Of a stretch of 64,000 nt of DNA, positions 5,354 through 58,527 are shown one piece after another. Location: positions 124,001 through 188,000 of the forward strand of contig NZ_FOGP01000004.1 of NCBI RefSeq assembly GCF_900111255.1, read 5' to 3'. How positions within the stretch are numbered: position 1 is the stretch's first letter; every line of letters starts with the position of its first letter. This DNA is from Parafannyhessea umbonata. Lineage in GTDB: Bacteria; Actinomycetota; Coriobacteriia; Coriobacteriales; Atopobiaceae. A program made the translations under genes and the position numbers. A model generated the notes under the pieces. The model was not told the DNA's origin, searched no databases, and worked only from the letters and a program-made list of their open reading frames with translations.

Positions 5354-6319
5354 TCAATAGATGTACCTGTCAGTATACGTCTTTCCATCACCCACATATT
5401 GGGTTGCGTCGGACGCAGCGGCAAAGGTTAGGTCAACGCGACTCCAGGCGTTTTGCTCGACGGTGAACGAGGCTGTTTGCCAGCTGCCGTCGACGTAGAC
5501 CATCATCCATGCGTGATAGATGTCGCCGGGCGAGACGTAGCCGGTGACGAGCTGTGCCGGGATGCCTTGACTGCGCAGCATTGCGCAACCAAGCGCGGCG
5601 TAGTCAAAGCAGATGCCCCTGCCCGTCGCCAGCGTCTCGTCCGGGTCGGGCACGTAGCCCTTTACGTTCCCGATGGACTGGGCCTTCTGGGTGTCGTATG
5701 AGATGTTGTCTACGATGAAGGCGCAGATCTTCTGGGCGGCCTCGCCCTGGTTCTGGGCGTCTGATACGATCTCGCGCGCCTTGGCGACGCAGGCACTGCT
5801 CTCGCTGTAGTTGCAGTACACGTTGGGCCTCAGGAAGGGTTCGAAGGGGGAGGCCAGCGTGACCGAGACGTTGGCGCTGGTGGTCTCGACGTAGTTGTTC
5901 TCGCTGGTATTACGCATGATTCTGATGACGTAGTCGCCGTCGCCCATGTTGAGGGGGAATACCGTGGGCGTACCGTCTGAGGGAAGGTCGTAGTTGTAGC
6001 TCTGCTCGCCGTGGGTGATTTGGACCTTCAGCCGTGCCTCCGAGGTCGCCGACGCGCTGACATATCCGTCCGAGGTGTGCGAGGCGTCGATGTACCCGTC
6101 GTTTTGTGCGATGGCGGCCTCGCGAACAAACACGGCGTCGCGAATCGACTGGGCTGGCGCGAACGGCGCGCCCTGGGCGCTGCTTCCGCCGCAGCCAAGC
6201 AGGGCGAGACAGCAGAGCAAGACGGCGAGAAGCGCGCGGTGCCATGGGCACGTGGCCGCAGCGAGGCATGCGGACGAACGGCGTGCGATGCGCGACGCTA
6301 TGTGGCGTGCCGAGCCCAT
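5354..6319 (-). CDS. Transglutaminase-like lipoprotein, first gene of the pilus operon
   Basis: 321 residues. The N-terminus is a lipoprotein signal: a hydrophobic stretch ending LALLGC (Cys43), then a Gly/Ser spacer. A strand-rich domain (about 60-190) is followed by a transglutaminase core with Cys in TGRGICFDYAALGCAML, a TGY strand and His in DIYHAWMMVYVDGSW, the Cys-His order of the family. It could be a protease or crosslinking enzyme outside the membrane. ATG at 6319 places the signal peptide normally; the open frame upstream to 6568 runs into the purE promoter region. It lies 38 bases before pilC, so it probably belongs to the pilus operon. Confidence 0.82.
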   Translation of the reverse strand: MGSARHIASRIARRSSACLAAATCPWHRALLAVLLCCLALLGCGGSSAQGAPFAPAQSIRDAVFVREAAIAQNDGYIDASHTSDGYVSASATSEARLKVQITHGEQSYNYDLPSDGTPTVFPLNMGDGDYVIRIMRNTSENNYVETTSANVSVTLASPFEPFLRPNVYCNYSESSACVAKAREIVSDAQNQGEAAQKICAFIVDNISYDTQKAQSIGNVKGYVPDPDETLATGRGICFDYAALGCAMLRSQGIPAQLVTGYVSPGDIYHAWMMVYVDGSWQTASFTVEQNAWSRVDLTFAAASDATQYVGDGKTYTDRYIY

Positions 6320-55103: not shown

Positions 55104-55598
55104 ATGTCTTCAATCTCAAACCATAGCCAGTCCTCGTCCCTGGAGGACGAGCCCCTGACTGAGGAGCTGCTGAAGCGCCTGCTTGCCAGCACTTCTCCCG
55201 AGGCATATCTCGATCGCGAGCAGATTGTCGCATGCGACTTTTCGCAGGCGATTACCGCTTTGGCAAAGGAGAAGGGCCTTTCGCGCGCGACGGTGCTCAG
55301 GCGAGCCCACGTGGCCGCGTCCTATGGCTATCAGGTCTTCGGCGGGGAGCGCCACCCCCATCGAAACGTCGTGATTGCGCTGTCGTTCGGCCTGCAGTGC
55401 AGCCTCGTAGAGACCCAGCGTCTGCTCAAGCGGGCCGGGTACTCCGAGCTCTACTGCAAGGACCGCCGCGACGCGATCATCATCTCGTGCGTGAATCGTC
55501 GTCTCGAAATCGATCGCTGCGACGACGAGCTCTATCGGTTGGGAGAAGACACGCTGCTGGATGAAAACGGTTACGTCAGACGTAGTTCCGCTCGATAG
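55104..55598 (+). CDS. HTH-like protein 1, paralogue of HTH-like protein 2, next to a Ser/Thr kinase
   Basis: 164 residues. An acidic N-terminus of about 55 residues precedes a lambda-repressor-like helical core: SRATVLRRAHVAASYGYQVF, GERHPHRNVVIALSFGLQC, then LVETQRLLKRAGYSELY and RRDAIIISCVNRRLEIDRCD. From YGYQ (74) to RRD (121) the distance is 47 residues, exactly as in the 137-residue protein encoded at 57028, and the core aligns without a gap, so the two are paralogues. They may bind DNA or act as kinase substrates. AAAGGG precedes the ATG. It lies 14 bases before the kinase gene. I know no described function for the family. Confidence 0.8.
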   Translation: MSSISNHSQSSSLEDEPLTEELLKRLLASTSPEAYLDREQIVACDFSQAITALAKEKGLSRATVLRRAHVAASYGYQVFGGERHPHRNVVIALSFGLQCSLVETQRLLKRAGYSELYCKDRRDAIIISCVNRRLEIDRCDDELYRLGEDTLLDENGYVRRSSAR

Positions 55599-55612
55599 GG
55601 GGTTCCTCTGTC

Positions 55613-56914
55613 GTGACTGATGAAGAGCTGCTTGCGACCCTCGACGCTGACGACTCCTATACGGTCCTGAACGTGCTTGCGCACGGTGAGGCCGGCGAGA
55701 CCCAGCTGGTCTGCCTTCCGGACTCCACGCTGCGATGCCTTGGGTCGGGACTTCCGGTCGTGGTGGCCGACAAGCTGCTGGTCCGCAAGTACATTCGCTC
55801 CGAGTTGGAGAACAGGGGCGTATGGGAGGCCGTGGCGGCGCTCGATGACCCACGCCTCCCTCGCGTGCGACAGATCTACGAGCTTCCCGACAGGCTGGCC
55901 GTGGTGTATGACTACGTTCCGGGCGAGACGCTTCGCGAGCGAATCAAGCGCGCCGGTGCCATGGGCCCGCGCGAGGTGGCCGACGTGCTTGCCGAGCTTT
56001 GCCAGGTCCTCTCTCGCCTGCATGGGATTGGTCTGGTGCACCGTGACGTGACCCCAGGCAACGTTGTACTCGCCTCGGACGGCGTGCACCTTATAGACAT
56101 GGGCATCGCCCGCAAGAAGGTTTCCGGAGCGACGCGCGACACGATGCAGCTTGGCACCTGGGGCTTTGCGTCCCCGGAGCAGTATGGCTTCGGCCAGACC
56201 GACGCGCGCTCGGACGTCTATTCGCTTGGTCGCCTGCTTGGCTATCTTCTGAGCGCCACCGAACCCTCCGACCCCAGCTTCGACCAGCGTGTCCGTGAGG
56301 CAACGGGGGGAGCGTCTGCCCTGCTAAAGGTGTTTGAGACCGCATGTGCCCTTGCGCCGGACGATCGTTTCCAGAGTGCCGAAAAGTTCTCCCGCGCCCT
56401 TCGAAAGGCCCTGCCGCCACAGCCGAAGAGGGGCGCCTCGAGGGGAGGCACGGAGCACTTCTCTGCTGCGGGGAAACGCGCTCACGACAGGAACCACGCT
56501 GATGCCAGGCGTGGCCTGGCGAGAAGTGCGCGCGACTACCTTGTCGAGACTCCGCGCGCGTTCGCTGCCGCAGCGGCGTCGACGCACGGTTGGCGACGCC
56601 TGGTCTTGGTCATGGTCCTTCTGGTTGCCGTCTTTGAATGCCTCTTATTCGTGGGCTCCGGGGTGATGTTGATCGTCAGTCCGAAGGAAGCCACGGACCC
56701 CGCCTCTGGAATCCTGTCCTTTCTTGCCGCGGCCTATTTTGTGTACGCCGTGGTGATGGAGCCTACGCTGTGCGCCCTTGGCTGGGGGCCATATGACGGG
56801 GGCGGGCGTGCGCGCGTGCTCGGTAGGCGCGAGGCGTATCTGCTGGGTCTGCTAGTCGTCGCGGAGCTTGCCCTCGTCTTTCTGTCGTTGTTCGCCGGTG
56901 CGGTGACGAGGTGA
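55613..56914 (+). CDS. Membrane Ser/Thr protein kinase with C-terminal multi-TM domain
   Basis: 433 residues. Hanks-type kinase domain (about 15-270): Lys59 in LVRKYIRSELE, catalytic loop LVHRDVTPGNVV (Asp145, Asn150), Asp162 in IDMG in place of DFG, activation segment GTWGFASPEQYG, and SDVYSLGRLL. The glycine loop is poorly conserved (LAHGEAGETQ). A basic linker leads to three predicted membrane helices (about 330-356, 362-386, 408-430). There are no PASTA or other sensor repeats. Start is GTG at 55613. It is flanked by two paralogous HTH-like proteins, possibly its targets. Confidence 0.88.
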   Translation: MTDEELLATLDADDSYTVLNVLAHGEAGETQLVCLPDSTLRCLGSGLPVVVADKLLVRKYIRSELENRGVWEAVAALDDPRLPRVRQIYELPDRLAVVYDYVPGETLRERIKRAGAMGPREVADVLAELCQVLSRLHGIGLVHRDVTPGNVVLASDGVHLIDMGIARKKVSGATRDTMQLGTWGFASPEQYGFGQTDARSDVYSLGRLLGYLLSATEPSDPSFDQRVREATGGASALLKVFETACALAPDDRFQSAEKFSRALRKALPPQPKRGASRGGTEHFSAAGKRAHDRNHADARRGLARSARDYLVETPRAFAAAAASTHGWRRLVLVMVLLVAVFECLLFVGSGVMLIVSPKEATDPASGILSFLAAAYFVYAVVMEPTLCALGWGPYDGGGRARVLGRREAYLLGLLVVAELALVFLSLFAGAVTR

Positions 56915-56954
56915 CGGCTTCTGTTGTCGGATGGCTGCGTTTTTTAAAAATGAT

Positions 56955-56984
56955 TTGAATTCAATCGTTTCTTATTTGTAAACT
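56955..56984 (+). promoter_or_regulatory. Candidate promoter and operator of HTH-like gene 2
   Basis: An AT-rich stretch contains TTGAAT (56955-56960), an 18-base spacer and TAAACT (56979-56984). The -35 is part of a perfect palindrome TTGAATTCAA (56955-56964), which could be a self-regulatory site. The region is far more AT-rich than its surroundings. Confidence 0.45.
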
Positions 56985-57027
56985 AGTTCAGTCTGTTATG
57001 TGCTAAAGGCTAGGACTAGGGATTCAG

Positions 57028-57441
57028 ATGACAACGGATTGGCACTTTCTTCAGGAGGCCTCGAGCGCCGAGGACGCCGTGGCCGCGGCGAACATAAGCA
57101 ACGTCACGCTCAAGGCCTGGATCAACGCAAAGCTCGAGGAGCTTGGCGTCCGCAAGAATGTCGTCGTGGCGCGCTCGGGCCTCAACCAGACGTACGGCTA
57201 CCAGATCATGGCCGGCCTGCGCACCGCATCGCGCGACAAGCTGATCCAGCTGGCCTTTGGACTCGGCCTGGATGTCGGCGACTGCTCGACCATGATGTCG
57301 CTGGGCGGCGTGTCGCCTCTGAGTGACTCCTGCCGACGTGACGTAATTATTGCCTGGGCCATCCAGAAGGGGCTCGACGTCACCGACTGCAACTCGACCT
57401 TGAAGCATCTTCGCGAGAAGCCCCTGGTGGAGCATCGCTAG
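57028..57441 (+). CDS. HTH-like protein 2, paralogue of HTH-like protein 1
   Basis: 137 residues. The helical core VVVARSGLNQTYGYQIMAG, LRTASRDKLIQLAFGLGL, DVGDCSTMMSLGGVSPL and SCRRDVIIAWAIQKGLDV matches the 164-residue protein encoded at 55104 across about 80 positions without gaps, with YGYQ and RRD 47 residues apart in both. The N-terminus is shorter and different. SRDKL..LAFGLGL resembles an XRE recognition region, so DNA binding is plausible but unproven. It has its own promoter candidate and is separated from the kinase gene by 113 bases. Confidence 0.8.
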   Translation: MTTDWHFLQEASSAEDAVAAANISNVTLKAWINAKLEELGVRKNVVVARSGLNQTYGYQIMAGLRTASRDKLIQLAFGLGLDVGDCSTMMSLGGVSPLSDSCRRDVIIAWAIQKGLDVTDCNSTLKHLREKPLVEHR

Positions 57442-57469
57442 GGATTACAGCGATAACTGAGGCAAATGA

Positions 57470-57498
57470 AGGGGCGGTCGCCACGGCGTGTCGCCCCT
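57470..57498 (+). terminator. Weak terminator after HTH-like gene 2
   Basis: AGGGGCG (57470-57476) pairs with CGCCCCT (57492-57498) around an inner GCC/GGC pair. Only GTT follows, so termination may be partial. Confidence 0.5.
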
Positions 57499-57637
57499 GT
57501 TCATATCAATAATCAAATTACGCTCCCAGCGGAAGACTTTCTCTCCTCTTCTCCCTATCATCGTGCAAACGCACGCAAGCGTTGCTTCGAGTCGCATTGG
57601 ATCAAGTCGCATAAAAGAAGAATCGAGAGGAAGCACC

Positions 57638-58129
57638 ATGAGAGTCGCATCAATCGCAGCGCCAACGATCCTCGCCGCTACCTTGGCCCTTTCGCTGGGC
57701 GCATGTGGGGCGTCTTCGGGAAGCTCGAACCAGGACCAGGGGCAGTCGTCTGAGCCCGAGGCCGCCCAGAAGGCCCCCGAGTCATCCGTCGCCGTCACGA
57801 TCGACGGTGTGACTACCACCACGGACTATGAGGGAAAGCCCTGCGCGGTGGTGAGCTATACCTTCACCAACGTTTCGAGTGACGAGGCACAGGCCTTCTC
57901 CACCTCGACGTACCAGGAGGTCTATCAGGGCGGCGTGCAGTGCGACGTCACCATGGCGACGGACGGCAGTGCGGACGGGCAGTCGTCGCTTACCAAGGTC
58001 AAGGCGGGCAACTCCGTTTCGGTCAAAATCGCCTACGAGCTTAAGGACAACTCCGACCTCGAGGTGAACGTCTACCCGATGGACTTCAGCGGAAACCCGC
58101 TCGCGAGCAAGACGTTCACGCTCTCATAA
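57638..58129 (+). CDS. Lipoprotein with DUF5067-like domain
   Basis: 163 residues. Lipoprotein signal: hydrophobic stretch then LSLGAC with the acylated Cys at about residue 24, followed by a Ser/Gln/Glu linker. The exported domain (about 55-163) is an immunoglobulin-like sandwich typical of DUF5067/DUF4352: CAVVSYTFTNVSSDEAQAFS, VYQGGVQCDVTMA, KVKAGNSVSVKIAYEL. These proteins often accompany surface kinases or sensors in Gram-positives; the ligand is unknown. GAGAGGAAG stands before the ATG at 57638. Confidence 0.78.
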   Translation: MRVASIAAPTILAATLALSLGACGASSGSSNQDQGQSSEPEAAQKAPESSVAVTIDGVTTTTDYEGKPCAVVSYTFTNVSSDEAQAFSTSTYQEVYQGGVQCDVTMATDGSADGQSSLTKVKAGNSVSVKIAYELKDNSDLEVNVYPMDFSGNPLASKTFTLS

Positions 58130-58185
58130 GCGTTGCCGTGTCTTACCGCAGCTGAAACGTTCGACGATTTTCGAAGGTGATATGT

Positions 58186-58527
58186 ATGAAGAAAAGCAAG
58201 CTGCTGCTCGTCGCCCTCATCCTGGGCGCATTGTACGTTTTCTATAGCGCATGGTATTGGCTGGGCGGGGGAGTGGATTCCTCCAACGCGGGCGCTGCGA
58301 TTGCAACGGTCTTGGTCGCTCCGCACCTTTTCTGCACGGCAATGGCCGTGCTTTTCAACGCGCTAGGCTACTTCATGGCTCGTCGAGCCTTCGCGCTCAC
58401 CGCCGGCATCCTCTATGCCGTGGCCATGGTGCTCTTTCCGGTCTACTTCTTCTTCGTTCTGATCCAGATGATCCTGTGCTTCGTGGCGTTTGCGAAGATG
58501 TCGAAAGCTAGCTCCGTCACGGCGTAG
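58186..58527 (+). CDS. Small membrane protein, three or four helices
   Basis: 113 residues with hydrophobic segments at about 4-22, 38-57, 62-78 and 84-104, and a short polar tail. No family is recognised. It starts 56 bases after the lipoprotein gene with AAGGTG seven bases upstream of ATG 58186, so the two may be one operon with the HTH/kinase genes. Followed by a strong hairpin shared with the ferredoxin gene. Confidence 0.7.
   Translation: MKKSKLLLVALILGALYVFYSAWYWLGGGVDSSNAGAAIATVLVAPHLFCTAMAVLFNALGYFMARRAFALTAGILYAVAMVLFPVYFFFVLIQMILCFVAFAKMSKASSVTA

Follow-up and report, generated by a model that had tools for sequence, protein, structure and literature searches.

A conserved pairing of a membrane-bound Hanks-type Ser/Thr kinase with a Cro/C1-type regulator in Parafannyhessea umbonata and its relatives: a possible signalling module

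The genome of Parafannyhessea umbonata (Coriobacteriia, Atopobiaceae) encodes a membrane-bound Hanks-type Ser/Thr kinase between two paralogous helix-turn-helix (HTH) proteins, and related kinases are found beside related HTH proteins in other Coriobacteriia, in Lachnospiraceae and in Listeria. The DNA analysed, hereafter the window, is a stretch of 64,000 nucleotides (nt) of contig NZ_FOGP01000004.1 (positions 124,001 to 188,000), within which five genes of the module occupy positions 55104-58527, all on the + strand. In the order and shared direction already reported in the initial annotation, these encode HTH-A (55104..55598; 164 amino acids), the kinase (55613..56914; 433 amino acids, GTG start), HTH-B (57028..57441; 137 amino acids), a DUF5067 lipoprotein (57638..58129; 163 amino acids) and a small membrane protein (58186..58527; 113 amino acids) that has three hydrophobic segments, resembles PHROG 31229 and accompanies the module in some members of the family. 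Only 14 nt separate HTH-A from the kinase. A separate promoter may lie in the A+T-rich gap of 113 nt before HTH-B (56915..57027, +); searches of the window's gaps found neither a sigma-70 consensus nor a conspicuous inverted repeat. Pfam models detect no histidine kinase or receiver domain among the five module proteins, placing them outside the two-component systems, and a tRNA was the sole Rfam match in the window.

The kinase scores 77 bits against PF00069 (cut-off 31.7) and retains the β-3 lysine (K59), the HRD aspartate (D145), the catalytic asparagine (N150), the aspartate of the DFG position (D162) and the APE glutamate (E189). Among 137 relatives, the HRD aspartate, the asparagine and the DFG aspartate are invariant, while the β-3 lysine is present in 130. 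Its closest structural match in Foldseek is PknB (E 3e-17), and it shares its fold with the PASTA kinases PknB, PrkC and Stk1 but lacks their PASTA domains: there is no Pfam match to PASTA, and the protein reaches 108 bits against NCBIfam model NF033483, for which the cut-off is 450. This absence had been claimed from the sequence alone, as had three C-terminal helices, which correspond to hydrophobic, predicted transmembrane (TM) segments at residues 330-348, 364-382 and 410-428 (56600..56896, +), all past the kinase domain. The IDMG motif singled out in place of DFG was rejected as a distinguishing trait, given that the relatives mostly carry DFG or DLG and that the catalytic aspartate is invariant. 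Kinases of the family take two forms, one with multiple TM helices and no outside domain, the other with a single TM helix and ~240 residues outside the membrane. P. umbonata has only three Hanks kinases in all; the other two lie ~15-23 kb downstream, beyond the window (L055:6468-16143), probably form the usual PknA/PknB-type cell-envelope cluster, and have no HTH protein of the module family beside them. PADLOC models for anti-phage defence kinases of the PD-T4-6 type recognise the kinase domain (lowest E 2e-36), but they describe generic Hanks kinases and cover the generic domain only; models of other systems (mad6 and MkoA) match as well. The module is moreover common and chromosomal, and no defence islands were recognised in the regions read, whose genes are without systematic annotation; a role in phage defence is therefore extremely improbable.

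The two HTH proteins are paralogues, as the initial annotation had proposed. A gap-free alignment of the two spans 125 residues (28% identity, E 2e-16), their Smith-Waterman score of 137 compares with a maximum of 46 among 1000 shuffles, and a distance of 47 residues separates the motifs YGYQ and RRD in each protein (positions 74/121 in HTH-A and 56/103 in HTH-B). The accompanying statement that neither is a recognised regulator stands at the level of Pfam thresholds, where they score 19.4 and 15.8 bits against HTH_31/HTH_3 (cut-off 27), but not beyond it, as both are recognisable as Cro/C1-type domains. AlphaFold confidently predicts a five-helix domain at residues 46-110 of HTH-A (55239..55433, +; predicted local distance difference test >90), followed by helices at 121-131 and 136-145. 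Foldseek matches the first five helices to C.AhdI, SinR and DdrO (probability ~1.0, root-mean-square deviation 1.5-2.0 over ~60-66 residues), with E values of only 0.02-0.12 because the domain is small. HTH-A thus has the Cro/C1 fold expected of a DNA-binding protein, and the fold of HTH-B is taken from its homology to HTH-A, the one protein modelled. The strongest matches of the HTH profile to sequences in the PDB are likewise Cro/C1-type proteins (8bny and 1y7y), though weak. Because of the Foldseek placement of HTH-A, and because a more typical relative (L077) exceeds the cut-off for both HTH_31 and HTH_3 (35.6 bits), HTH-A and HTH-B are best regarded as diverged XRE-type proteins with a characteristic predicted C-terminal two-helix element that holds the RRD motif (RRDAII in HTH-A).

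The same HTH plus two-helix unit occurs in other proteins. Macro-domain proteins of 340-440 amino acids, usually one per genome, carry a related C-terminal domain in L093:3335-4444 (-), L106:1191-2204 (+), L089 and L091 and in the Lachnospiraceae loci L249, L252 and L253; PF01661 was confirmed for those of L093 and L106. Single chains with two tandem HTH units are encoded in Lachnospiraceae at L248:2484-3512 (-) and L250:2711-3820 (+), the former two genes away from a kinase, in parallel to the twin layout of HTH-A and HTH-B. The unit seems to be a module common to different signalling proteins.

Adjacency of HTH protein and kinase is strongly conserved. An HTH homologue lies beside a kinase in 54/63 cases in Coriobacteriia, 30/37 in Lachnospiraceae and 77/81 named loci including Listeria. 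The three samples share some species and were selected on HTH score, which makes the resulting ~80-95% approximate; several exceptions are HTH-B proteins or come from loci close to contig ends. Conversely, all 30 Atopobiaceae family kinases examined, a set selected as the best-scoring loci, have an HTH neighbour, and 13 have one on either side, the arrangement seen in the window. The initial annotation had made its case for a module depend on such homologues being frequent neighbours of kinases and on a predicted fold suited to binding DNA or the kinase, and with this adjacency and the Cro/C1 fold that case survives. The HTH family is present in 93/121 genomes and 28/35 genera of Atopobiaceae and in 67/149 genomes of a class-level scan, with only a few weak matches in the phylum outside Coriobacteriia. 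A scan of named genomes recovered it in Coriobacteriia, Listeria, Lachnospiraceae, other Eubacteriales and one metagenome-assembled genome of Peptococcaceae. P. umbonata itself has exactly two members, both flanking the one kinase. The genes for HTH-A, kinase, HTH-B, lipoprotein and membrane protein very probably constitute one functional unit. HipBA toxin-antitoxin systems also consist of an XRE-type protein encoded with a kinase, and the order of XRE protein then kinase, with 14 nt between them in the window, would fit an antitoxin followed by a kinase toxin. However, HipA belongs to another kinase family, no HipA-family model matches here, and this kinase is of the Hanks type and has TM helices; the pair is also widespread in Atopobiaceae, is encoded divergently in Bacillota and has a lipoprotein linked to it, which makes a toxin-antitoxin function very improbable.

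The initial annotation suggested that the kinase senses at the membrane and phosphorylates one or both HTH proteins, which would then change gene expression; the two proteins are, however, not equivalent. A tree of 171 HTH proteins places HTH-B in a single clade (support 100/100) restricted to Atopobiaceae, of which nine members lie downstream of a kinase and six elsewhere, while 142/156 proteins outside this clade adjoin a kinase. HTH-B is also present in two genomes (G002 and G049) that have no match to the kinase family. Because HTH-B forms one Atopobiaceae clade that also occurs without the kinase, and the other HTH proteins are mostly kinase-linked, the tree and gene neighbourhoods indicate that HTH-A is the ancestral, cognate partner of the kinase and HTH-B a later Atopobiaceae duplicate. 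K119, A124 and I127 of the C-terminal motif are kept in HTH-A and largely in its Bacillota homologues, but not in HTH-B, which weakly suggests that the two-helix element is the kinase-facing part. Loss of the K-x-R-R-D-A-I-I-I form of this motif in HTH-B would also be consistent with HTH-B acting as a kinase decoy and not as a regulator in its own right. A comparable case is known from Mycobacterium tuberculosis, in which the transcription factor EmbR is a substrate of the Ser/Thr kinase PknH, and the paralogue EmbR2, reported to be unable to accept phosphate, inhibits the pair (PMC4601284). Nonetheless, the HTH residues of HTH-B are kept and the protein survives in genomes where no family kinase was found, on which grounds it must be able to act without the kinase; a decoy role, although compatible with signalling from the kinase to HTH-A, is unlikely.

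HTH-A and kinase appear to be inherited together. Distances among HTH-A proteins correlate with those among their kinases (Mantel r 0.84; permuted maximum 0.16), though this value is inflated by the species tree and common descent alone gives some correlation. A stronger point, as judged from subfamily placement, is the sorting of pairs in genomes that contain two: in each well-sampled case, the HTH protein and kinase of a pair generally have their nearest relatives in one subfamily, even though the two pairs of a genome differ from each other. Pair L102 in G173 lacks close relatives among the proteins compared and says nothing about sorting.

This sorting bears on the main rival explanation, in which HTH-A, as an ordinary autorepressor, would adjust the amounts of kinase and lipoprotein, while the kinase would act on other proteins, such as those of the envelope or division, and never on HTH-A. 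XRE-type regulators commonly control neighbouring genes, and in 25/30 Lachnospiraceae pairs the two genes point away from each other across a common intergenic region, as is usual for a local regulator. The Listeria intergenic region between HTH and kinase genes (L075, ~5895-6000) contains an inverted repeat, ATTATAGCA-29 nt-TGCTATAAT, that is kept in distant Listeria species; it was rejected as an operator, as it looks like the -10 boxes of two divergent promoters, but that the two promoters form an inverted repeat would suit autorepression. A transcriptional link alone, however, less strongly predicts that HTH-A and kinase subfamilies track within two-pair genomes. In Coriobacteriia, furthermore, HTH protein and kinase are encoded on the same strand and the kinase often has a dedicated promoter beside its start codon: in 56/104 loci, an extended -10 element, TGNTANNAT, occurs in the 130 nt that precede the module kinase, compared with 15/443 control genes. 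Autorepression without signalling to HTH-A is accordingly rather unlikely, although a promoter of the kinase's own fits either this explanation or the signalling model. The element mostly lies 6-9 nt before the ATG (for example in L158, L177 and L051) and was not seen in the window; loci that carry it probably produce leaderless kinase transcripts, to judge from its position. A shared operator, TGCTATAAT/TATAGCA, was also considered and rejected, since the Coriobacteriia motif is better explained as this extended -10 element.

The lipoprotein scores 80.4 bits against PF16729 (DUF5067; cut-off 27) and begins with a signal segment followed by an LGAC lipobox, as read from the sequence. It is the sole DUF5067 protein of the genome and of the module. 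In 41 Atopobiaceae genomes, 10/16 DUF5067 genes lie within ~2 kb of the module by their coordinates, and at L306:2257-3540 (-) a kinase domain, one TM helix and DUF5067 are fused in a single frame of 427 amino acids that is cut by the contig end. A DUF5067 gene is found within 2.5 kb of 37/65 multi-TM kinases and of 0/12 single-TM kinases (p 2e-4, a value that overstates independence, as the 12 single-TM kinases are largely one clade). Homology between the outside domain of single-TM kinases and DUF5067 was unsupported (hhalign probability 2.6%). Its proximity to the module, the fusion and its absence near kinases with their own outside domain suggest that DUF5067 takes on the outside function where the kinase has no such part of its own, making this lipoprotein the probable extracytoplasmic partner of the P. 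umbonata kinase.

A similar set of genes is found in Listeria monocytogenes, where those for the DUF5067 lipoprotein (lmo0617), kinase (lmo0618) and HTH protein (lmo0619) adjoin; in contrast to P. umbonata, the HTH gene is divergent from the kinase gene and is the only one. The numbers lmo0617 and lmo0618 agree with published reports (PMC5736727; PMC3091722), whereas lmo0619 follows from gene order. The kinase gene was one of ten deleted in a screen in which all mutants but one showed 5-10 fold reduced intracellular replication (PMC3091722), its product has been likened over its first 115 residues to TraE1 (PMC4379056), and the product of lmo0617 has been called a DUF4352 lipoprotein (PMC5736727). 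The description of the module as undescribed in the initial annotation is hence correct for the pairing, which goes unmentioned in the literature searched, but not for all its members. That literature yielded no link between the lmo0618 kinase and an HTH protein, nor any described kinase-XRE pair of this kind. A Listeria record labelled as plasmid and several labelled as Listeria phage (among the records NZ_LR134399.1, OR848110.1 and OR846727.1) carry the gene, which otherwise looks chromosomal, and may be mislabelled.

The closest known systems include two kinase-regulator pairs. In Streptomyces, the Ser/Thr kinase AfsK acts on the dedicated regulator AfsR, and embR presumably adjoins pknH in the M. 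tuberculosis genome. For a kinase whose regulator has been duplicated, PknH-EmbR with its paralogous regulator offers the nearest precedent. EmbR, however, combines an OmpR-type domain with a BTA domain and recognises its kinase through FHA, while the module regulators are small proteins in which Pfam and Foldseek identify a Cro/C1-like HTH as the sole domain, with neither FHA nor OmpR-type domains. AfsK-AfsR resembles the module in uniting a kinase with a dedicated regulator, but AfsR is a large SARP/NOD/TPR protein (PMC10936776), unlike the Cro/C1 proteins of 137-164 amino acids described here.

Taken together, the evidence tilts modestly towards a dedicated Ser/Thr signalling system, two-component-like in its logic, that runs from the DUF5067 lipoprotein through the kinase to HTH-A. 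The lipoprotein would serve as a sensor or ligand binder outside the membrane and work with the three-TM kinase; the kinase would then control HTH-A, most likely by phosphorylation, and HTH-A would alter expression at its own locus and possibly elsewhere. HTH-B, derived from the Atopobiaceae duplication, could provide a second output or, as a decoy, modulate HTH-A or the kinase. Several observations weigh against this chain, in addition to the shared ancestry that affects the Mantel correlation and the single-TM comparison. No shared phosphosite stands out among HTH-A proteins: S73 is Ser/Thr in 98% of them, but many HTH proteins have Ser/Thr at that position, and T150, a Thr in 96%, is not kept in Bacillota. 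The frequent presence of a promoter for the kinase itself means that kinase and HTH protein need not be co-expressed, computational searches identified no operator for the HTH protein, and DUF5067 is missing near 28/65 multi-TM kinases. More tentatively, the module may represent a Ser/Thr counterpart of two-component systems that matches kinase and regulator one to one and is widespread in Coriobacteriia, Lachnospiraceae and Listeria. Such a system would comprise a lipoprotein or fused outside domain as sensor, a Hanks kinase without PASTA domains and a Cro/C1 regulator of its own with a kinase-facing C-terminal two-helix element; the Atopobiaceae duplicate would be a decoy or second output.

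Eukaryotic-like Ser/Thr kinases of Gram-positive bacteria, of the Hanks type, have been described as few and pleiotropic, with targets that are not exclusive and without pairing to one regulator, unlike histidine kinases with their single partners (PMC4601284). A kinase family encoded nearly always beside one regulator family, across two phyla and among gut bacteria, would be an exception to this picture, and one for which both a candidate input (DUF5067) and a candidate output (the HTH protein) can be named and tested. It also provides hypotheses of function for proteins annotated as hypothetical or DUF5067, including those of Listeria lmo0617-lmo0619. Encoded here beside an outside-facing lipoprotein, kinase and regulator remain paired in many gut bacteria and in Listeria, which suggests a widespread and little-studied sensing switch.

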